From Panopea generosa (lineage: Eukaryota; Mollusca; Bivalvia; Adapedonta; Hiatellidae), in NCBI GenBank assembly GCA_029582155.1, contig CM055895.1, positions 17,102,787 through 17,166,786 of the forward strand: DNA of 64,000 nucleotides. The letters are read 5' to 3'. Positions 9,254 to 62,900 of this stretch are shown here, in pieces. The notes under the pieces are model-generated. The model saw nothing but the letters and a program-made list of their open reading frames with translations. It did no database searches and was not told the DNA's origin. The translations under genes were made by a program, and so were the position numbers. Position 1 is the first letter of the stretch. Each line of letters begins with the position of its first letter.

Positions 9254-9481
9254 GACTGTTATAATGTGGCGACGTTCTCCTGACGTTCCCGGATGTACAG
9301 TGTTGCTCATAAGATTGTACGTGTGGATTTTTCTAGTGAAATATTTGGACACGCAAGAACTACCTACGAGAGATACAGATTATGCATTCGGCATTAATCA
9401 AAGGAATTTATTTTATGATAATAACAGAATCCCAGACGGAATAGAAGTATCTCCTTATCTTTTTGTAAACACAACGAAAAA
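9254..9481 (+). CDS. NDNF: NDNF homologue, first coding exon (signal peptide and N-terminus)
   Basis: The exon begins after a good acceptor (pyrimidine-rich tract then CAG at 9251-9253) and ends at a consensus donor GTAAGT at 9482. ATG at 9264 is the first in the exon. The 72 complete codons encode a basic start, a hydrophobic segment at about residues 12-25 that looks like a signal peptide, then 'LPTRDTDYAF' and 'IPDGIEVSPYLF'. These match the conserved N-terminus of NDNF (vertebrate pattern LPTRDEE... and IPDGAEISSYLF). The last codon is split after two bases, and the next exon supplies G to give Lys. NDNF is a secreted, heparin-binding neurotrophic and vascular factor in vertebrates; its role here is inferred from homology only. 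An upstream ATG at 9177 lies in the intron. Confidence 0.9.
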
Positions 9482-11008: not shown

Positions 11009-12167
11009 ATTTATCATGATGTTATAATTCAACCTATCTTGTTCCTCAAAAATGACGTTACTTTACCTTATGTCACATGTCTTCAAAACTAAGGGGGTGG
11101 GGAAGGCAAGTTACTTTTCTTTTTACAAATAATACCGTAGTTAACTCCCTTAGTTGTTAATTACACCCTAGAACAGCTGCCTTTTTCGTTGAATGAAATT
11201 CTTAATCTTTTTTATACGATTAATACAAATATTATCTATACGTTGGTTAAACATACATATTTTATTCAGATTTATATACATAAGTAGCACGTTCATGAAT
11301 ACATCAGTAAATCGGAGGCTATATACATGCAGCACATCCATCCATCCATCCATCGCCGCCATCCGAAGCAGACTTTAACATCAGTCATACCGATAAGCTA
11401 CGTAAAACGTTACTAGACATGACCTTTATAAACCCTCCAAGTCGCTCTACTCTCACCAAATGTTCATTTATAGACACGTATCATATCACCCGAATGCAAA
11501 TTGATGATAAGAAGATTGCCTCACAGATAAATTCATCCTCATAGATGCCCAGTGTCGTGATATATACTAGCAGTTTATTTTCTTAACACGTACGTGTTTC
11601 CGTCATACTGCACACCTATACCTCCTGCTATGTACATCATACGCGTTCATGCGCACTAATACTCGTATCACCTGTTAGAATAATTCTTAGACGTGGAAGA
11701 TATGTAAAGTACTATTAGTTTGTTCATTCATTCAAATAGCACACCATTGTTATAATACGACCATTTGGAACACGGATTCGCATATTTGGTTCAAAGATTG
11801 AATGCCCTTGTTTCATACAAAAAAACTAGAAGCAGACGACACTTATGATCGACAAAACTCACAAGATGCAGCAGTTTTTTTAAGTATCTCTAAAAATGTA
11901 GTAATCACTAACATGACTAATATGAAAACAGTTTTTGTATTTATCTGAAAGAAATTCATATTTTGAATAATATACCGTTAATATTAAAAACTGCATTTTT
12001 TACTGTAAAACAAGAGTTGATATTACCAGATTGTATGATAAAATGTATTCAGACCACGTTTCCTTGGAATGCGCGTCATAGCAAGGAAATGGACTCGAGA
12101 GCGAAACATTCAACTTCTGATGTTACATTTTACATTGCAAATTAATATATATTCAAACATACAGCCT

Positions 12168-12444
12168 GGTCCGATAAGCTCAGTCAGTTACGCGTCTGAC
12201 TATCAATCCAGGGGTCGTGAGTTCGAATCCCCGCCCGGCAACAGTCTCCGTGATGATTGATATACGACATTGTGTCTCATTATCATTCGTCTCTCACCGC
12301 TGATTTAAGTGGGGAAATTATCAGTTACTTACGGAGATAGGGTGTACTCGAGTACTGGTTAACCTTTCAGTGGTTAGGTTAACTGATGGTCTGTAAGCCC
12401 TTGATGGCATAAAAATGACGCTAAATATACAATCAATCAATCAA
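12168..12444 (+). repeat. tRNA-derived SINE, family A, with CAAT tail
   Basis: Head 'ggtccgataagctcagtcag', box B 'tgagttcgaatcccc', body and 3' end as in 7838-8157, with a short CAAT tail. Confidence 0.8.
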
Positions 12445-16398: not shown

Positions 16399-16752
16399 GT
16401 TGATCGTAATTGTAAATTATGCATGTGCATCATTTTCGCGGAACGTGGTTATGAGGGATGTTATCGTATCGTTTATATTTGCTGATCATGATTGTAAGTG
16501 ATACATGTGTATGCATCATTTTCACGGAACGTAATTATGAGGGATGCTATCGTACCGTTTATAGTTGCTGATCGTGAGTGTAAGTGATTCATGTGTATGC
16601 ATCATTTTCACGGAACGTAATTATGAGGGATGCTATCGTACCGTTTATATTTGCTGATCGTGAGTGTAAGTGATACATGTGTATGCATCATTTTCGCGGA
16701 ACGTGGTTATGAGGGATGATATCGTACCGTTTATATTTGCTGATCATGATTG
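16399..16752. repeat. 86-bp tandem repeat, four copies
   Basis: Unit runs from 'tgctgatcgtgagtgtaagt' through 'catcattttcacggaacgta' to 'gctatcgtaccgtttatatt'. The last unit is interrupted by the family-E SINE at 16753. Confidence 0.9.
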
Positions 16753-17012
16753 TCCGCTTGAAAGACAGTATTCGCATCGCTGCTACACTGGAGTATTGTC
16801 ATGCCGCAGACACATGGTATGCCATCCGACCCAGTCACATTATAGTGACACCGGCCTAACCAGTCCTAGAACAATCCTCTAAATGTTGAAGCGCCAAGCG
16901 AGGAAGCTTACACTACCATTTTCATATCTTTGGCATGACCCGGCCGGCTATGGAACCCGCGACCGACCTTCCGCATTCGAGGCGGACGCTTTACCCCTAA
17001 ACCACCGCTGTT
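16753..17012 (-). repeat. tRNA-derived SINE, family E, inserted in a tandem array
   Basis: Minus-strand head 'gcggtggtttaggggtaaag' and 'cgtccgcctcgaatgcgg', body to about 'gcagcgatgcgaatactg'. The 3' tail is cut where it meets the 86-bp array. Confidence 0.75.
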
Positions 17013-25482: not shown

Positions 25483-27103
25483 ATAATGTCGATATGTTGT
25501 TATACCTAGTGCTGGATGTCGGTATTTTGTTATACCTAGAGCTGGATGTCGGTATGTTGTTATACCTAATGATGCTGGATGTCGGTATGTTGTTATACCT
25601 AGTGCTGGGTGTCGGTATGTTGTTATACCTAGTGCTGGATGTCGGTATGTTGTTATACCTAGTGCTGGATGTCGGTATGTTGTTATACCAAGTGCTGGAT
25701 GTCGGTATGCTATAATTCCTAGTGCTGGATGCCGGTATGTAATAACACCTAGTGCTGGATGTTGCTTTGTTATTACACCTAGTGTTGGATGTATGTATGT
25801 TGTTATACATAGTGCTGGATGTCGGTATGTTATTATACATAGTGCTAGATGTCGGTTTATTATTACACCTAGTGCTGGATGTCGCTTTGTTATTACACCT
25901 AGCGTTGAATGTATGTATGTTGTTATACATAGTGCTGGATGTCGGTATGTTATTATACCTAGTGCTAGATGTCAGTTTATTATTACACCTAGTGCTGGAT
26001 GCCGGTATTTTATTTTACCTATCGTTGAATGTATGTATGTTGTTATACCTAGTGCATGTCGGTATGTTGTTAAACCTAGTGCTGGATGTCGGTATGATAT
26101 TACACCTAGTACTGAATGTCGGTTTGTTATTACACCTAGTGTTGGATGTCGGTATGTTGTTACACCTAGTGCTAGATGTTGGTATGATATTACACCTAGT
26201 GCTGAATGTCGGTTTGTTATTACACCTAGTGTTGGATGTTGGTATGATATTACACCTAGTGTTGGATGTCGGTATGTTGTTAAACCTAGTGCTGGATGTC
26301 CGTATGATATTACACCTAGTGCTTGATGTCGGTTTGTTATTAAACCTAGTGCTGGATGTCGGTATGATATTACACGTAGTGCTGAATGTCTGTTTGTTAT
26401 TACACCTAGTGTTGATGTCGGTATGTTGTTACACCTAGTACTGGATGTTGGTATGATATTACACCTAGTGCTGAATTTCGGTTTGTTATTACACCTAGTG
26501 TTGGATGTTGGTATGATATTACACCTAGTGATGGATGTCGGTATGTTGTTAAACCTGGTGCTTGATGTCCGTATGATATTACACCTAGTGCTGGATGTCG
26601 GTTTGTTATTACACCTAGTGCTGGATGTCGGTATGATATTACACATAGTGCTGAATGTCGGTTTGTTGTTACACATAGTGTTGGATGTCGGTATGTTGTT
26701 AAACCTAGTGCTGGATGTCGGTATGATATTGCACCTAGTGCTGGATGTCGGTATGTTATTACACCTAGTGTTGGATGTCGGTATGTTGTTACACCTAGTG
26801 TTGGATGTCGGTATGTTGTTATACCTAGATCAAGATGTCGGTATGTTGTTACACCTAGTGCTGGATGTCGGTATATTATTACACCTAGTGCTTGATGTCG
26901 GTATGTTGTTATACCTAGTGCTGGATGTCGGTATGTTATTATACCTAGGGTTGGACGTCGGTTTGTTGTTTTACCTAGTGTTAGACATTGGTATGTTATT
27001 ATACCTAGTGCTGGATGCCGGTATGTTATTATACCTAGTTTTGAATGTCGGTATATTATTACACCTAGTGCTGGATGTCTGTATGTTATTACACCTAGTG
27101 CTT
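25483..27103. repeat. 30-bp minisatellite, about 54 copies
   Basis: Unit 'ctagtgctggatgtcggtat' followed by 'gttgttacac'. Because the unit is a multiple of three and lacks stops, several frames stay open for hundreds of codons (for example a repeating LVLDVGMLLY). Variant units (GATATT, TTTGTTATT) alternate in the second half, giving a 60-90-bp higher-order pattern. I see no start context, splice sites or non-repeat coding sequence, so I treat it as satellite DNA. Confidence 0.9.
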
Positions 27104-36687: not shown

Positions 36688-36806
36688 GTTTTTCTTTTTA
36701 TTGGAATCCAAGATTGAGCGCCTGGAGATATCCGTTAGCCCGTGTGCTTCCCCTATTATTTGGCACGTCACCTATAAACCGCATCGAGAAAACACACCCA
36801 TATATG
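36688..36806 (+). CDS. NDNF: NDNF homologue, second coding exon
   Basis: The acceptor is a long T/C tract ending CAG at 36685-36687 and the donor is G|GTAAGTT at 36807. The first base completes the Lys codon split in the previous exon. The exon then encodes 39 codons beginning FFLLES, with 'LEISVSPCASPIIWHV'. This corresponds to the NDNF segment that in vertebrates reads YFFVVEED...LSVTVTPCDAPLEW. The exon ends with one base of the next codon (G), completed as Glu by the last exon. Residues are about 73-113 of the protein. The last ~55 bases of this exon and its donor are the template for the tandem array that follows. Confidence 0.9.
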
Positions 36807-39440
36807 GTAAGTTTAAAGCTCAAACCCAAGTTCTTCTCCTGTCATGTGGCACATTACATACAAATCTCCAGGTGAAAACACACTCAGATATGGTAAGTTA
36901 TATGGCTCAAACTTAAGTGCTTCTTCTGTCATGTGACATATTACATACAAACCTCCAGGAGAAAACACACTCAGTTATGGTAAGTTAAATGGCTCAAACT
37001 TAAGTGCTTCTTCTGTCATGTGACATATTACATACAAACCTCCAGGAGAAAACACACTCAGTTATGGTAAGTTAAATGGCTCAAACTTAAGTGCTGCTTC
37101 TGTCATGTGACATATTACATACAAACCTCCAGGAGAAAACACACTCAGATATGGTAAGTTATATGGCTCAAACTTAAGTGCTTCTTCTGTCATGTGACAT
37201 ATTACATACAAACCTCCAGGAGAAAACACACCCAGTTATGGTAAGTTAAAAGCTTAAGTGCTTCTTCTATCATGTGACACATAACATATAGACCTCCAGT
37301 AGAAAACACCCATATCTTGTAAGTTAAATGGCTCAAACCCAAGATCTTCTCCTGTTATCTGACATTTTACATACAAACCTCCAGGAGAAAACACACCCAG
37401 ATATGGTAAGTTATATGGCTCAAACTTAAGTGCTTCTTCTGTCATGTGACATATTACATACAAACCTCCAGGAGAAAACACACCCAGATATGGTAAGTTA
37501 AATGGCTCAAACTTAAGTGCTTCTTCTGTCATGTGACACATAACATATAGACCTCCAGTAGAAAACACCCATATATTGTAAGTTAAAAAGCTCAAACTCA
37601 AGTTATTCTCCTGTCATGTGACACATTACATAAAATTATAAATCTCCAGTAGAAAACACACCCATATATTATAAGTTAAATAGGTCAGACTCAAGTTCTA
37701 TTCCTGTCATGTGACACATTACATATACACCTCCAGTAGAAAACACACCTATATAATTATGGTAATTTAAATAGCTCAAACCCTAGTTCTTCTCCTGTCA
37801 TGTGACACATTACATAAAATTATAAATCTCCAGTAGAAAACACACCCATATATTGTAAGTTAAATAGGTCAGACTCAAGTTCTTCTCCTGTCATGTGACA
37901 CATTACATATACACCTCCAGTAGAAAACACATCCATATAATTATGGTAAGTGAAATAGCTCAAACCCAAGTTCTTCTCCTGTCATGTGACACATTACATA
38001 TAAACCTCCAGTAGAAAACACACCCATACAATTATGGTAAGTGAAATAGCTCAAACCCAAGTTCTTTTCCTGTCATGTGACACATTACATATAAACCTCC
38101 AGTAGAAAAACACACCCATATAATTTTAGTAAGTGAAATAGCTCAAACCCAAGTTCTTCTCCTGTCATGTGACACATTACATATAAACCTCCAGTAGAAA
38201 ACACACCCATATAATTATGGTAATTGAAATAGCTCAAACCCAAGTTCTTTTCCTGTCATGCGACACATTATATATAAACCTCCAGTAGAAAACACACCCA
38301 TATAATTATGGTAAGTGAAATAGCTCAAACCCAAGTTCTTCTCCTATCATGTGACACATTACATATAAACCTCCAGTAGAAAACACACCCATATAAGTAT
38401 GGTAAGTGAAATAGCTCAAACCCAAGTTCTTTTCCTATCATGTGACACATTACATATAAACCTCCAGTAGAAAACACACCCATATAATTATGGTAAGTGA
38501 AATAGCTCAAACCCAAGTTCTTTTCCTGTCATGTGACACATTACATATAAACCTCCAGTAGAAAACACACCCATATAATTATGGTAAGTGAAATAGCTCA
38601 AACCCAAGTTCTTCTCCTGTCATGTGACACATCACATTAAAATCTCTAGGAGAAAACACACCCGGATATGGTAAGTTAAATAGCTCAAAACCAAGTTCTT
38701 CCTCTATCACTTGGCATATCACATATAAATCTCCAGGAGAAACAAAACACACCCAGATATGGTAAGTTAAATAGCTCATAACCAAGTTATTCCTCTATCA
38801 CTTGGCATATCACATATAAATCTCCAGGAGAAAACACACCCAGATATGGTAAGTTAAATAGCTCAAAACCAAGTTCTTCTTCTATCACTTGGCATATCAC
38901 ATATAAATCTCCGGGAGAAACAAAACACACCCAGATATGGTAAGTTAAATAGCTCAAAACCAAGTTCTTCCTCTATCATTTGGCATATCACATTTAAATC
39001 TCCAGAAGAAACAAAACACACCCAAATATTGTAAGTTAAATAGCTCAAAACCAAGTTCTTCCCCTCTCACTTGGCATATCACTTATAAATCTCCAGGAGA
39101 AAACACACCCAGATATGGTAAGTTAAATAGCTCAAAACCAAGTTATTCCTCTATCATTTGGCATATCACATTTAAATCTCCAGGAGTAATAAAACACACC
39201 CAAATATTGTAAGTTAAATAGCTCAAAACCAAGTTCTTCCCCTCTCACTTTGCATATCACATATAAATCTCCAGGAGAAAACACACCCAGATATGGTAAG
39301 TTAAAAGCTTTAACTTAAGTGCTTCTCCTGTAATCAGACATATTACATACAAACCTCCAGAAGAACACATCGAGATATTGTAAGTTCAAGACTCAAACAG
39401 CTTCTCCTATCATCTGACATATTTCCACAAACTTCCAGGA
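36807..39440 (+). repeat. exon/donor-derived minisatellite, ~30 copies of 86-91 bp
   Basis: Each unit aligns to the end of NDNF exon 2 (36752-36806) plus the first ~30 bases of intron: 'ttggcatatcacatataaa' against exon 'ttggcacgtcacctataaa', then 'gagaaaacacacccagatat', then 'ggtaagtt', then 'ctcaaacccaagttcttct'. By my count about 27 junctions keep GTAAG. The first unit translated in the exon frame gives WHITYKSPGENTLRYG against WHVTYKPHRENTPIYG in the exon. Many middle units change the Trp codon to TGA, while several late units (38700-39300) remain open. Three subfamilies follow in order: 87-bp (36893-37578), 91-bp with 'ataattat' (37600-38640), and ~87-91-bp (38640-39440). All units are in gene orientation. 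Confidence 0.9.
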
Positions 39441-39550
39441 GAAAACACGCATATAAGCGTTACATAACCTTTCCCCGACACTCTTTCTTATAAAATGCAA
39501 AATTGGGAAATTATTTTAAAACTTTATATTTGCGTTTGGATTTAAGCATA

Positions 39551-39826
39551 TTATTGATTGAGTAATTGATTGAATAGTAAGCGTCATTTTTATGCCATCG
39601 AGGGCTAACATACGACCATTTAACCTAACCACTGTTTCCTTAGATCCTGGAAGAACTCGAACACATCCAATCTCTGCAAGTAACTGATAACTTTCCCACT
39701 TGAATCAGCGGTGAAAAACGAATGATAATGAGACGCAATGTCGTAGACTGTGACCGGGCGGAATTCGATCTCACGACCCCTTGATTGATAGTCAGACGAC
39801 CTACCGACTGAACTAATCGGACTCAA
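39551..39826 (-). repeat. tRNA-derived SINE, family A, inverted
   Basis: Tail 'attgattgagtaattgattg' at the left, 3' end 'gcgtcatttttatgccatcg', box B 'gtgagatcgaattccgcc' on the minus strand, head 'gtccgattagttcagtcgg'. Confidence 0.8.
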
Positions 39827-40234
39827 TAAAAGACCATATCAAATAGAGCTCGTAATTTATAACAACTTATTCTAACTTATGTTGATATACCATTATTATG
39901 ACTTTTTTACAACTATGTTTGTGCCTAAAATTGATAATCATTTAAAATACATAATATCAACCATGTTTTGATTGGTTGTTTTTATTCTGTAAATGATATA
40001 AATAAAGTTATGTTTTAGGACCTTTTTAAAGATTGACATGTTCAAATGAATTATCTCGTTTAAAATATTTTACCATTATTTTTATTATTAATATTTTCAT
40101 AATTAACATTATTATTGAAGAAAAAGGAAAACTATTTTGAAAGACGACGAATGCACATGTCTTCTCAAATTATCAGTTTCATCTACAGTTCCGGGGTACC
40201 TGAAGTATACACAAGTATACATGCATACACGCAA

Positions 40235-47249: not shown

Positions 47250-48560
47250 ACGTCTGGCACAAGGGACTCCTTATTAAACTTAATGCTGTTGGGATAACAG
47301 GAACTCTCCTATAATGGTCAACTAATTACCTAGAAAATCGTAATCAATGTGTTGTCGTACCCGGCTGTATATCTAATATGTCTAGTTAGAAAGCCGTGGT
47401 ACCTCAGGGATCTATCCTACGGCCTCTGTTGTTCCTGGTTTATATAAATGATATTGTAGAAAATAAGCTTACCTATAAAAGTATTTGCTGATGATACTAG
47501 TCTTTTTATTATAGTAGAATTACAAGATCTTGCCGCTTCTATGTTTAATTCTGATCTCAGAAAGAATCATAACTGGGCTTGTTAATTTTAATAAAAAAAA
47601 CAACAGAATCGATGGTTATTTACCGTAAAATCAACAAACCGATACATCCAAATATTTCGATGAATCATACTATTATACACGAAGTTATTACTCATAAACA
47701 TCTGGGCCTTACTTTTTCTAACAATGGGACATGGCATGAACACATTCAATACAGAAAAGATAAGGCACGGAAATTAATAAACATTACGCGACTTTTAAAA
47801 TTTCAATAAGATAGAAAAACAGTTCTCTAAAATAGGCTAACATTGTCTTGGATAATTGCACTTTGTATGAAGTTAATGAAAATATTCGGTTGGAAGCAGC
47901 AATAATAGTAACGGGAGCAAAAAAAAATGTTTCTATATCACCTCTGTACAAAGAGACCTGTTGGGAATCCTTATAAAACACAAACTAATCCTTTATTACA
48001 AAATGCATAACGGATTATCTCCTTCGTGCCTATGTTCAACATTACCTGAAAATGTTGGGAATCTTATTGGCTATAACCTTCGAAATGCACAAGACCTTTG
48101 GACCTTTTCATGTAATACTCAATTATATTTTAATTTATTCATACCTTCTTCCTGGCATGAATGGAATAATCTTCCACACCGCATACGAGAGTCACATTAC
48201 ATTCATATATTCAAATAAAATATTAACGCTAATAAACAAAATGTACCAAATCACTATTATACATGAACCGAACTGCCCGAATATATCATCCACGACTCCA
48301 TACAAACTGCAGTAACTTGAATCAACATTTATTCAATAAAAGCATAGTTGCAAGTCCAAATTGTCTTTGTAGTGAAATTGAGGACGAATATCATTATTAA
48401 ATCAGGTTCAGATTAGTTCACCAGTATAAACAAAGAATGATGACTGAAATAAAATTAACTTACCCACATGATCCCTCCTTGAATAATCTTCTGTATGGTA
48501 ATGAAAATCTTACACTAACTGAGAACAACTCTATTTTTATGGCAGTTTAAAATAATATTA
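47250..48560 (+). mobile_element. degraded non-LTR retrotransposon (LINE), 3' half
   Basis: Several frames together carry reverse-transcriptase motifs: 'VWHKGLL' near 47252, 'VPQGSILRPLLFLVYINDIV' at 47399-47458, and the catalytic FADDT at 47484-47498. Further on come 'HLGLTFSNNGTWHEHI' (47579-47809) and a C-terminal region with 'YKMHNGLSPSC', 'YNLRNA', 'WNNLPHRIRES' (47961-48216). The end region has Asn-Leu-Asn then C-x-C...E...HY spacing (48300-48410). Stops and frameshifts break it throughout, and the 5' half is absent. The family looks Jockey/CR1-like, but clade cannot be fixed by eye. It lies sense within NDNF intron 2. Confidence 0.8.
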
Positions 48561-49781: not shown

Positions 49782-51148
49782 AGCTCGGTAATGATGTCGA
49801 GAATACCGTCGTAGGTTACCAGCCTGTCATCAATACAAAAGATGTATTATACACGTTATCTGGTGAAGTAGCTGAAACCCTTCGTCTTGACTCTCCCGCT
49901 ATCGGTGTCTACACACTAGAAATAACGTCCGTCAATACCGACAGCTACGTTGAGATTTATGCGACCACGTCCCCCGATGTCGATCGACTGCCAGAATTAC
50001 CTAAAGATAGTAATATAAGTGAGTTACAAGTAACGTCAGATAGCTTCACCGTAGCGTGGAAGCCGACTCCTGACGAGCGTCATTTTGGGGATGATATTGA
50101 CTACTGTATTGCTATTAACAGAAAAAGAAGTTTCAAGACTTTGTGTTCCGTATTGTCTCATCTAAATGGAGACGCAAAACCAACGTTGCCTCCCGGGAGT
50201 GGATTTGGATTTTCATCTGATTTGTATAGAAAAAGAGTTCTCAAGCAAAGGGCCAAGCCGATATCGGCGGCGAAGAAAGGGTCGATTTTCTTCAAATGTG
50301 TTGGAAAGGAGACAAAGTTTGTTTACAATAAAATTCGAAAGGGAAAAGGATACTACGTCGATGTTTTCGTCACGTTTAAGAAGACTGGTAAATCCAAACG
50401 ATTCAAAGGTATATATATAAAAACGAAACGAAAACGCCGTTTGCCAACTTTAAAAGAAGGAAAGAATAAAACAGTTGTGTTTACTAAAAAGAAAAAAGTA
50501 AGATCGTATTTATTTCATGTTAAGCATTCGACAAAAGATGTTCATCTTGCTATTAGTGCGTGTAGCGGGAATACAAACATTGAGGTAAAATCAAACAATG
50601 GCACATTTCACAAATCAAAAATTAAAAAATCAAAAATTCTAACATTAAAAGACTTGAATCCAGGAAGATATATATTAGCATTATCAAAATCAAGTGTACG
50701 TCGACGGCAAAGTGTTTATATATCAGTAAACACCAAATCCAAAAATGTTCGAATGCCGAAACTACCAAAAGATACAACCGTTAAAGTATTTGACTATCTC
50801 ACAAGTTGTAATAGCATCACCGTTGCGTGGATGGGTACGGCAAAGAAACAAGAATATTGTTTATATAAAACCGAAATGCCCTCAATCAAGTCTACTAAAA
50901 AGTCTTCTTTATTTAAAAAACTAAACCAGTGTGGCGCTCAAACACGACGGGAAATGAACGCGCGGAAAATCACTTGTAAAAAATTCCGATATAGTAAAGA
51001 ACGAGCGGTGTTAGCGATCACGGTAACTGGCCTGAAACCCGACACAGCGTATATATTTGACGTGTTTGTAAATAAAGGAAACTATTTCTCATTTCCATAC
51101 AATAGTGTTCGGACGAAAACCAGTCCAACGTGCTTTCTTCCGACATGA
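49782..51148 (+). CDS. NDNF: NDNF homologue, last coding exon (FN3 domains and C-terminus)
   Basis: Opens after 'ttttcaatattgcag' (AG at 49780-49781). The first two bases complete the Glu codon begun by exon 2, and the frame then runs to TGA at 51146-51148. It encodes residues 113-567, giving a 567-residue protein against about 568 for human NDNF. Visible NDNF landmarks: 'VEIYATTSPD', 'FTVAWKPTP' (Trp ~205) and 'DYCIAINRKRSFKTLC' in the first fibronectin-III region. Further on are 'TVAWMGT' (Trp ~462), 'YCLYKTE', 'ITVTGLKPDTAYIFDVFV' and 'RTKTSPTC' in the second. The middle is strikingly Lys/Arg-rich ('KSKRFKG', 'KTKRKRR'), fitting heparin or matrix binding, and has NKT and NGT sequons. The product is predicted secreted. 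Function in this animal is inferred from homology. Confidence 0.95.
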
Positions 51149-60339: not shown

Positions 60340-60618
60340 GGATTTAAGGTTGTTCTATCAAGAAACATATTGCTTTTTTCAATAGATTCAGCATTAAAAT
60401 TTCACGATAGATTTGTTTTGGACAAAAATGATAAAATTATTTTTATAAAAACAATTTCTTATATAGTAGGCATAACTGGTATTACCCAAAATGAAACCAA
60501 AACACTTAGAGTTATTTTTAATCACGGTTTGTAATCTGAAATCAAAATTGACCTAAGTTACAATACCGGAAATGTTACATCGCTCATACAGCATATCGAC
60601 AAGATCGAAAATTTATAA
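60340..60618 (+). pseudogene. broken reading frame at the left edge of the Polinton-like element
   Basis: One frame is open from 60340 and reads like protein ('KFHDRFVLDKNDKIIF', 'GITQNETKTLRVIFN'), has TAA at 60532-60534, and continues in the same frame ('DLSYNTGNVTSLIQHI') to TAA at 60616-60618. Its end overlaps the start of the next gene in a different frame by about 47 bp, as in compact viral-type genomes. I do not recognise the family; a virion or capsid-associated protein is possible from context. No convincing ATG is visible, so the 5' end may be lost. Confidence 0.4.
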
Positions 60619-61483
60619 GGGGGAACAAGTTACAATCTTTAGGTTCAGCGGAGCTACTGAGAAAGGCAAAATGGACGTAGAGAAGTGGACTCGTCATTTC
60701 AGTCTATTGGCTGAACGCAAACTACGAAAGGATCCAAGAGGATTTTACGTTGTTGATCAATTAAATGGTAAAGAAAACCCATTACTGACACCAAATGAAA
60801 TACTGGACACAATGCCATTCCGTTATAAATCCAATGTTGGATCGATACTATCACATCTGATAAAAGATCCGGAGAAATTATTAACGTGGATTGATGCTGG
60901 TGAACTAATTTATGAAGGAACGTCCATACCAGAATCTAAAATTACAGACTTGTTGAAATGTAGTCAAAACCAGTATAAGGACTATGACATCATTGGAGCT
61001 TCCAAGTTATACAGCGGATTTAAGGAAATAAGCATGTCAATTAAGCTGTACAAAACACCGAAAACAGCACAAAATAGACCATTTTCGCCAGGCATCCCAA
61101 AACGGAAAAAAATTAAAAAATTGGTTTCATACATTTAAACGGAGAACACCAGAGTCTACAGACGTTATCATTATCTACTTGAATTGGGAACAACGAATGT
61201 GAGAGACAGAAAACTGATGATTGAACATATAATTCCTGACCAACTGGATTCAATCAGTACTGTTGCGCACCATATTGTGGAATCCAGGATACCTATTATG
61301 GATAGAGATTCAGATTATTTTCATCGGAAGAGGCGAATACTGAGAGTCATTGCTGGACATGTCGTGCCATTCAGAAGGAAACGCAGCCTGTTGTTAAATC
61401 AACACAAGATTATCCCGAGACTACTACGGGCATTCTATTTGAGATATACCATGCGAAAAGAAATAAGGACACGAGAGGAATAA
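60572..61483 (+). pseudogene. basic protein of the Polinton-like element, split by a stop codon
   Basis: ATG at 60572 (an in-frame stop lies just upstream at 60554). The frame runs 188 codons to TAA at 61136-61138 and then continues in the same frame, without any ATG, for 115 more codons to 61483. The two halves therefore look like one ~300-residue gene with a nonsense mutation. The first half has 'MDVEKWTRHFSLLAERK' and a very basic end; the second is rich in Arg/His ('RRILRVIAGHVVPFRRKR'). No catalytic motif is visible and I do not recognise the family. It lies 58 bp upstream of the ATPase gene on the same strand. The alternative, two separate genes with the second starting at a non-ATG codon, is less likely. 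Confidence 0.6.
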
Positions 61484-61541
61484 ATATTGTCAAAGTTTAT
61501 AAGGGGACTATTTGCACTAACGACACTTAAAAAGAGGCAAG

Positions 61542-62594
61542 ATGAAAACAATTTCTTGCACAGTGTGTGATCAGACATTTTGTAGTAGATACAATCTCAT
61601 GAGACATAAGAAAAATAAACACTTTGAAGAGCAACCACAGCATAAAGATTATAAAAGCTGGAGATTACCACCAGGAATCCCAGAGTATCAGGGAGCGCCG
61701 GGAACGCATTTAGGAGCGCCGGGAGCGCATTTGGGAGCGCATTTGGGAGCGTCAAGAGCGCATTTGGGAGCGCAAGGAGCGCATTTTGGAGCGCATTTGG
61801 GAGCTCCGGAAGCGCATTTAAGAGCGCCGGGAGCTCCAGCGTTTAAGTTCAAACATCCTTGTTCCATAGTTTTAACTGGACCAAGCGGTAAATCGGTGTT
61901 GACCAAGAAGATATTACTCGATAAATACATTCTACCTCCGCCGCAAAGAATCATATGGTGTTACGGACAACACCAACCTCTCTACGACGACATGAAGAGA
62001 CACTTACCAGAGGTTGAATTTGTGGAAGGGATCCCGAATTTTATAGACCAAGACACTTACCTGGATGTGGCAGTACGAAATTGTATCATTCTGGACGATT
62101 TGATGGGAGATGCAAAGAAAGATGAACGCGTTGCTAATCTATTCACGAAAGGATCACACCATAGAAACCTGACAGTGTTATATTTAACACAGAATTTGTT
62201 TCCACAAGGAAAATCATCGAGAGATATAAGTTTAAATATCAAATATTTGGTGTTGTTCAATAACCCTGTGGACAGAATGCAAGTTTCCAATTTTGCTCGA
62301 CGTATAAACCCTACCAATATTCATCTCTTCATGAACACGTATAAACGAGCTGTAGAGAGCCCGTATGGAAATTTAGTTGTTGATCTACAGGCCAACACAT
62401 CGGAACAAGATAGACTGCGAGAAAATATTCTGAATGGAAATAAACCTTATGAACATGGCTCTTCGACATTACCGGTTGTCTGCGATTCAGACACATACAT
62501 GTCAAAAGTTATAGGGACACACCACTATATTATCATCAAGACTCAACCAGTTGTTCCTCCGAAGAAAGTGATTATTCCGAAGATTGTGACATAG
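61542..62594 (+). CDS. packaging-type ATPase of a Polinton/adintovirus-like element, with C2H2 finger
   Basis: An intact 350-codon frame. Residues 6-27 form a C2H2 zinc finger (C-x2-C-x12-H-x4-H). Residues ~50-100 are an unusual Gly-Ala-His-Leu repeat. From ~105 follows a P-loop ATPase: Walker A TGPSGKS (113-118 GPSGKS), Walker B 'CIILDDLM' (Asp 185-186), and a sensor-like 'YLTQNLF' (214-220). After these comes 'FNNPVDRMQVSNFARRI'. This order and spacing is that of the FtsK/HerA-type genome-packaging ATPase (A32-like) of Polintons/Mavericks and adintoviruses, which would drive DNA into capsids. It sits between broken genes of the same strand, so it is probably a relic that happens to remain open. 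A host gene containing such an ATPase is unlikely given the neighbours. Confidence 0.85.
   Translation: MKTISCTVCDQTFCSRYNLMRHKKNKHFEEQPQHKDYKSWRLPPGIPEYQGAPGTHLGAPGAHLGAHLGASRAHLGAQGAHFGAHLGAPEAHLRAPGAPAFKFKHPCSIVLTGPSGKSVLTKKILLDKYILPPPQRIIWCYGQHQPLYDDMKRHLPEVEFVEGIPNFIDQDTYLDVAVRNCIILDDLMGDAKKDERVANLFTKGSHHRNLTVLYLTQNLFPQGKSSRDISLNIKYLVLFNNPVDRMQVSNFARRINPTNIHLFMNTYKRAVESPYGNLVVDLQANTSEQDRLRENILNGNKPYEHGSSTLPVVCDSDTYMSKVIGTHHYIIIKTQPVVPPKKVIIPKIVT
61689..61842 (+). repeat. coding GC-rich minisatellite inside the ATPase gene
   Basis: Units of 12-15 bp, 'ggagcgcatttg' and 'ggagcgccg', repeat in frame to give GAHL and GAP blocks. The tract is far richer in G and C than the rest of the gene. 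Confidence 0.85.
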
Positions 62595-62596
62595 AT

Positions 62597-62900
62597 ATGC
62601 CTATTTGTGACTACTGTGGGAACATGTTTGGGGATATACATGCTTTACAGAACCACGTGAAGCAATGGTGTGTAGAAAGAAAACGGAAACTGGATCAAGA
62701 TGTTGACACACAAATGACAGACGAGCCGAAAAAGAAAAAAATGGATAACGTTACCAAACGATGATGAAAGTGATAAAGAAGAAGAGATTAATGATGAATC
62801 ATCTGACATAGATAACAGTCAGGAGGATGAATAATCTGAAGATGATGAAGGAGAAGTGTTTTCTGAGTCTGTGTGGCAACGTTTATATATAATAATTTAG
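62597..62900 (+). pseudogene. small zinc-finger protein with acidic tail, frameshifted
   Basis: ATG at 62597, two bases after the ATPase stop codon. 'CDYCGNMF' and 'LQNHVKQWC' give a C2HC-type zinc finger, followed by a basic stretch 'DEPKKKKMDN' that resembles a nuclear localisation signal. The frame ends at TGA 62762-62764. A strongly acidic Asp/Glu/Ser-rich frame runs on in another phase from about 62760, with a TAA at 62834-62836 and its final stop at 62898-62900. I infer one ~100-residue gene broken by a frameshift and a nonsense change. Its finger resembles the one at the start of the ATPase. Function unknown; it could bind DNA or RNA. Confidence 0.55.

Follow-up and report, generated by a model that had tools for sequence, protein, structure and literature searches.

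The second intron of the NDNF gene opens with a minisatellite whose repeated unit is the very edge of the preceding coding exon. Known here from the sequence of one assembly, this array belongs to the mirages, a kind of structure described in amphioxus, and is longer than the globin examples. We consider, with a probability of about three in four, that this mirage-type minisatellite would have arisen from one duplication of the boundary followed by amplification of the copy, and that it would be near-neutral, with an occasional use of decoy donors giving rise to truncated products.

The array behind the second coding exon

The window (the whole stretch of 64,000 nucleotides that was analysed) carries on its + strand an NDNF gene of three coding exons, whose joined coding sequence is open for 567 amino acids. 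The exon structure was deduced from the reading frame, the splice consensus and the domains; the frame is kept across the proposed intron boundaries, the junction of exons 2 and 3 being of phase 1. Intron 1 has a length of 27 kb and intron 2 comprises 12,975 bases, the first 2.65 kb of which are filled by the array. The name of the gene, already given in the preliminary description, is borne out by three Pfam matches of the 567-aa product, all above cut-off: PF24354 (NDNF_N, 35.3 bits, residues 52-176), to which exon 2 contributes, PF10179 (first Fn(III), 81.2 bits) and PF19433 (NDNF_C, 139.6 bits). A search of PDB sequences yielded two weak matches only, with E values of 0.004 and 0.04. The features are the following.

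9264..9481, + strand: NDNF coding exon 1, from the ATG to a phase-2 donor AAA/GTAAGTAA, based on the open joined coding sequence and the Pfam NDNF domains
36688..36806, + strand: NDNF coding exon 2, acceptor TTTTTCAG/G, donor ATG/GTAAGT, ending in phase 1
36744..36806, + strand: part of exon 2 homologous to the unit (copy zero), residues about 93-112, ASPIIWHVTYKPHRENTPIY
36807..36812, + strand: genuine 5′ splice site of intron 2, GTAAGT, deduced from the frame and the exon 3 acceptor, U1 pairing -9.1 kcal/mol
36807..39465, + strand: mirage-type minisatellite, 29 donor-bearing copies and a degenerate last unit
36807..37577, + strand: proximal block, units 1-9, 86-87 bp except for 78 and 85 bp
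37578..38583, + strand: middle block, units 10-20, 91-93 bp, subfamily II
38584..39379, + strand: distal block, units 21-29, 84-91 bp, subfamily III, the last one grouping with I
49782..51148, + strand: NDNF coding exon 3, the last coding exon, acceptor TATTGCAG/AG, stop TGA at 51146-51148

Each unit corresponds to the terminal 63 bases of exon 2 together with about the first 24 bases of intron 2, donor included, and measures 84-93 bp, with a single exception of 78 bp. TRF reports 30.1 copies at 36786-39448. When the sequence is cut at every donor, 30 junctions are obtained, the genuine one at 36807 and 29 others, the first of them at 36893 and the last at 39380. The true exon-intron boundary forms the edge of the array, and the units lie in the same orientation, on the + strand. 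GTAAGT is found at 27 of the 30 junctions, the genuine one included, the three altered ones reading ATAAGT (once) or GTAATT (twice); its density on the + strand reaches 10.2 per kb in the array against 0.24 per kb elsewhere, and none is present on the - strand of the array. The AG at the CTCCAG position is kept in 28 of 29 units, and the piece comprised between CCAG and GTAAG has 21 nt in 13 of them, 25 nt in 12, 19 nt in three and 26 nt in one.

The three blocks differ in composition. Seven junctions of the proximal block fall into subfamily I, while those at 37319 and 37578 (units 6 and 9) fall with II. In the middle block the AG to GT pieces have 21-26 nt and the reading frame is open in none, and in the distal block six of nine units (22-27) retain TTGGCAT, the part of the exon around its tryptophan codon.

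These counts agree with the preliminary description, which had reported about 30 copies placed directly behind the genuine donor and in the same orientation, about 27 junctions with GTAAG and a mini-exon piece often of 21 nt; the WHITYKSPGEN peptide that it had noticed in the first and in late units is also read from the sequence. Its composition of the unit, exon end plus donor plus intron, stands as well, with a correction of the exon share, which is 63 bases instead of about 55, the start lying 8 bases further upstream, at 36744.

The homology between exon and units is seen directly. When exon 2 is compared with the pieces that precede the 29 later junctions, positions 36744-36806 show 70-80% identity in most units, and the intron part, compared over 26-27 bases starting at the donor, averages 85% identity with the genuine copy. 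This likeness, on which the preliminary description had made its own reading depend, exceeds what chance would give: the best local alignment of exon and unit scores 61, while none of 500 dinucleotide shuffles goes beyond 26, each shuffle being credited with its best score over all 29 units, and the other NDNF exons reach a maximum of 22 in 74 windows. A chance resemblance is ruled out by this comparison. At the other end of the range, the weakest unit scores 25, just under the shuffle maximum, and the best local match covers only 19 bases (100%) in two units and 32 bases (84%) in one.

Furthermore, an ungapped scan of both strands of the window found up to 50 of 63 matches inside the array and at most 32 of 63 outside it. 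In the assembly, which amounts to 1,474,161,289 bases in 39 contigs, a search in which the best candidates were scored returned 29 unit matches from one candidate stretch, all of them within the array. A dispersed repeat or a transposon carrying GTAAGT was set aside on the grounds that the best candidates included no further genomic match, an absence that is not a proof.

Splice signals and their predicted use

The genuine donor has a U1 duplex energy of -9.1 kcal/mol, and 19 of the 29 copies reach -9.1 or -9.9, the remaining ten donors of the array being weaker (-2.5 to -6.4 kcal/mol). Two thirds of the array donors would be, from an intrinsic point of view, equal to the genuine one, and would be expected to bind U1. 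The true donor would be used in most transcripts: exon definition most likely picks it, because it is the one nearest to the strong acceptor of the exon and to the coding signals. Since the whole array sits behind the true donor, the coding exon was not disrupted, and splicing of the intron would eliminate the array as well.

Joining exon 3 to any of the other donors is predicted to truncate NDNF, in 29 of 29 extensions, at 148-151 aa. The first extension would stop at 151 aa, 33 nt inside exon 3, and the other 28 at 148 aa, with 63 to 2463 nt left between the stop and the junction. If the nearest of these donors were used now and then, the products would be longer by 86, 173 or 260 nt, most of which would be predicted targets of nonsense-mediated decay, and the net effect would be a small and tolerated loss of correct mRNA. 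All in all, the array would probably do little harm and represent a by-product of the copying of DNA.

The same donors could be regarded as decoys, U1 bound to the copies lowering or tuning the productive splicing of NDNF exon 2 and establishing, through truncated and decay-prone mRNAs, a dosage control that depends on copy number. The equality of 19 of 29 donors with the genuine one, the truncation of every extension and the position of 28 of 29 stops, 63 nt or more upstream of the junction with exon 3, would suit such a role, as would the conservation of GTAAGT. By letter frequency, CTCCAG (0.989) and GTAAGT (0.983) are the two best-conserved of 82 six-column blocks, the observation that speaks most strongly for a function. 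When changes are counted on the tree, the pair shows 6 changes against 15.3 expected from random columns (P about 0.009), which also speaks against near-neutrality. However, under rotation, which preserves the blocks, the two together come fifth of 87 and either one by itself eighth of 87, so that GTAAGT, second by letter frequency, is only eighth by tree-counted changes; and the amphioxus mirages are reported to leave regular splicing undisturbed (PMC3087553, PMC3902484). Altogether, we regard the decoy role as unlikely. The case for selection on the splice signals, which is post hoc, is a weak one that would leave some room beside the near-neutral reading.

The units might also constitute a reservoir of in-frame microexons in which CTCCAG, 21 nt and GTAAGT add GENTPRY-like heptads in phase 1-1, perhaps in neurons. 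Eleven of the 29 units, seven of them among the first eight, hold AG, GT, 21 nt and an open frame, and each of these mini-exons is predicted to add seven GENTPRY-type residues, giving a product of 574 aa; the other 18 are out of frame, interrupted or without AG or GT, and this majority weighs against such a reservoir. An open mini-exon frame is to be expected, because it is inherited from the exon. CTCCAG is the top block by letter frequency, and eight mini-exon columns, GAAAACAC, show no change at all on the tree, ahead of both CTCCAG and GTAAGT, an observation that would favour microexons and count against near-neutrality. However, the body of the mini-exon accumulates 1.48 changes per column, a figure that is 1.37 for the 54 columns lying between the donor and CTCCAG, and the 11 mini-exons with an open frame differ by one synonymous and three replacement changes; coding constraint was not seen for the body as a whole. 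The acceptor-like CTCCAG pieces, in turn, have a mean pyrimidine share of 0.59 (range 0.47-0.65), weaker than the tracts of exon 2 (0.88) and exon 3 (0.65). A microexon reservoir appears quite improbable in view of these data, and it is also improbable that the array works as a multi-junction splicing device, delivering neuronal GENTPRY heptads or diverting transcripts to decay with an output set by copy number.

Another conceivable function would be that dense U1 sites prevent transcripts from being cleaved and polyadenylated too early within the long intron. The array does present such a density of U1 sites, and AATAAA or ATTAAA occur in it at 0.75 per kb, the value for intron 2 as a whole being 3.24 per kb, but the low density of these hexamers may simply reflect the unit sequence. 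Besides, intron 1, with its 27 kb, is devoid of any GTAAGT-carrying array of at least five copies. We consider this protective role very improbable. The only GTAAGT-carrying repeat of intron 1 is one of 3.8 copies and 86 bp, at 16426-16753, with three GTAAGT on the + strand.

Proposed origin and amplification of the unit

The direction of the copying was addressed through the conserved domain. The NDNF_N match of the 214-residue N-terminal piece falls from 27.9 to 15.1 bits when residues 93-112 are masked. Masking residues 113-132 or 133-152 costs 1.6-1.7 bits and masking 153-172 costs 4.3 bits, while with residues 73-92 masked the match drops off the list. Because the masking of residues 93-112 takes away 12.8 bits, the exon end, and not the array, is likely the source, the polarity going from exon to array. 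That an older satellite was instead exonised, a history which the restriction of the homology to that exon end and the units would allow, is hardly credible given the 12.8 of 27.9 bits that the domain match owes to those residues and the genome search, in which the unit was reported nowhere else among the best candidates.

As to how the copies multiplied, the closeness of the units to each other is also seen directly. Their identity to the exon copy is 66-84% and to the nearest unit 81-100%, the exon is the closest match of none of the 29, and at eight columns a base common to at least 90% of the units is missing in the exon. These two last observations fit better with one duplication of the boundary and subsequent amplification of the copy than with repeated copying of the exon, although the units might also seem alike because of substitutions that occurred on the branch of the exon itself. 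The preliminary description had proposed a repeated duplication of the exon/intron boundary; the origin from exon and donor is supported, with the polarity given by the masking, whereas the repetition is not supported, no unit being nearer to the exon.

The tree separates three subfamilies, proximal, middle and distal, with many inner nodes of low support. The very last junction joins the proximal group (support 62), the middle group contains mostly 91-93-bp units plus two shorter ones, and the distal group gathers 87- and 91-bp units. The exon leaf has a branch of 0.18. This unrooted tree was discarded as proof of a single origin, for any single leaf falls outside the rest, and nearest-neighbour identities were used instead.

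The first event would have been a tandem duplication of about 86 bp, which began at 36744, included the donor and ended some 24 bases inside intron 2, and by which the first copy would have landed directly behind the true donor. From then on the copy, and not the exon, would have been amplified into 29 units and three subfamilies, presumably by unequal exchange or slippage. The subfamily structure observed in this one assembly is compatible with a mirage-like instability of length between alleles.

Amphioxus mirages and other relatives

Minisatellites are very common around this gene, which makes the occurrence of one at an exon edge less surprising than it would be in an ordinary genome. The window and 200 kb taken from both its sides (G000:C2:17000001-17100000 and 17170001-17270000, pieces L009-L028) were run through TRF with a period of at least 20 and at least five copies, and gave 57 arrays with a summed length of 58,865 out of 264,000 bases, about 22%, a few hundred bases being counted twice. 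GTRAGT is present in at least 70% of the copies in two of the 57. The special feature left is that the unit itself is an exon edge. Two arrays rich in GTRAGT were considered as further exon-edge cases, and a look at their flanks and open frames led to the recognition of no exon edge at either: a G-rich 30-bp repeat at L019:5002-6746, and an array with a 27-28-bp unit at L013:2943-7505. Single arrays of more than 100 copies exist in L009, L013 and L017. In NDNF intron 1, a minisatellite of 54 copies and 30 bp (25486-27102), whose unit holds GGTATGT, carries GTAAG, GTATG or GTGAG at 24.7 per kb and no GTAAGT.

Other features were observed in the window. Adjacent open frames on the + strand at 60557-62764 look as if they came from a virus-like element or a large DNA transposon, a 357-aa frame holding a P-loop type GPSGKS; they may resemble Polinton-type packaging ATPases, and one of the two frames scanned gave weak zinc-finger matches in Pfam, below cut-off. 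The open frames at 47573-48315 are reminiscent of the tail of a retrotransposon reverse transcriptase, and the two of them that were scanned against Pfam gave no match at 0.01. A similar stretch, SDYQSRGRE, at 39620-39838 (-) and 12042-12260 (+), suggests copies of a dispersed, perhaps tRNA-related element; scans of the whole window with Rfam, at the gathering threshold, and with ARAGORN for tRNA genes returned nothing.

A minisatellite with multiple splice donors, reportedly described by Turri et al. in 1995, is said to concern 6-16/IFI6; judging by the title of that work, several splice donors would be found in one transcript, as in the NDNF array.

The closest relatives of the array are the mirages, i.e., minisatellite-like duplications of intron/exon boundaries found in amphioxus Adh3 and in the globins BflGb6 and BflGb9 (PMC3087553), PGBD5 and TnC being added, beside Adh, by a second account (PMC3902484). 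The preliminary description had called a satellite born from a splice junction unusual, which is half right, given the several amphioxus genes in which mirages are reported. According to the first account, duplication can affect the 5′ as well as the 3′ boundary, AG and GT persist in many units, RT-PCR suggests that regular splicing is undisturbed, and two haplotypes of BflGb6 carry 6 and 3 repeat units (PMC3087553). Both the amphioxus cases and the NDNF array consist of tandem copies of an exon-intron boundary beside the genuine junction, many of them with their splice signals and with clusters of more similar repeats. We classify the NDNF array as a mirage because its unit spans the boundary, the genuine boundary is an edge copy and AG and GT are retained, these being the features testable here. 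It lies at the 5′ boundary of a 13-kb intron and differs in size, with about 29 copies in 2.65 kb against the 6 and 3 units of the BflGb6 haplotypes, and in divergence, its units being 66-84% identical to the boundary copy whereas the BflGb6 repeats are 81-100% identical among themselves. Among the open-licence papers searched we found no report of a mirage in NDNF, or of mirages outside lancelets.

A further kinship exists with intron gain, either by tandem genomic duplication of AGGT segments (PMC3443670) or via tandem repeats in human duplicated genes (PMC2812944). In these works, splice signals are multiplied by tandem duplication, as in the NDNF array; however, in intron gain duplicated exonic sequence makes a new intron, while in NDNF one existing intron is enlarged.

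The array indicates that the edge of a coding exon can seed a satellite, and if its host is other than a lancelet, mirages would extend beyond the group where they were described. With 20 donors of nearly equal U1 pairing, the genuine one and 19 copies, within 2.6 kb, it would offer a natural test of the choice of 5′ splice sites. Furthermore, the 11 in-frame mini-exons may be seen as raw material for new exons, in the manner proposed for the amphioxus globins, where a model of new exons and introns born from mirages has been put forward (PMC3087553). The value of the array would reside in this natural experiment on donor choice and exon birth, in a structure of an already described kind.
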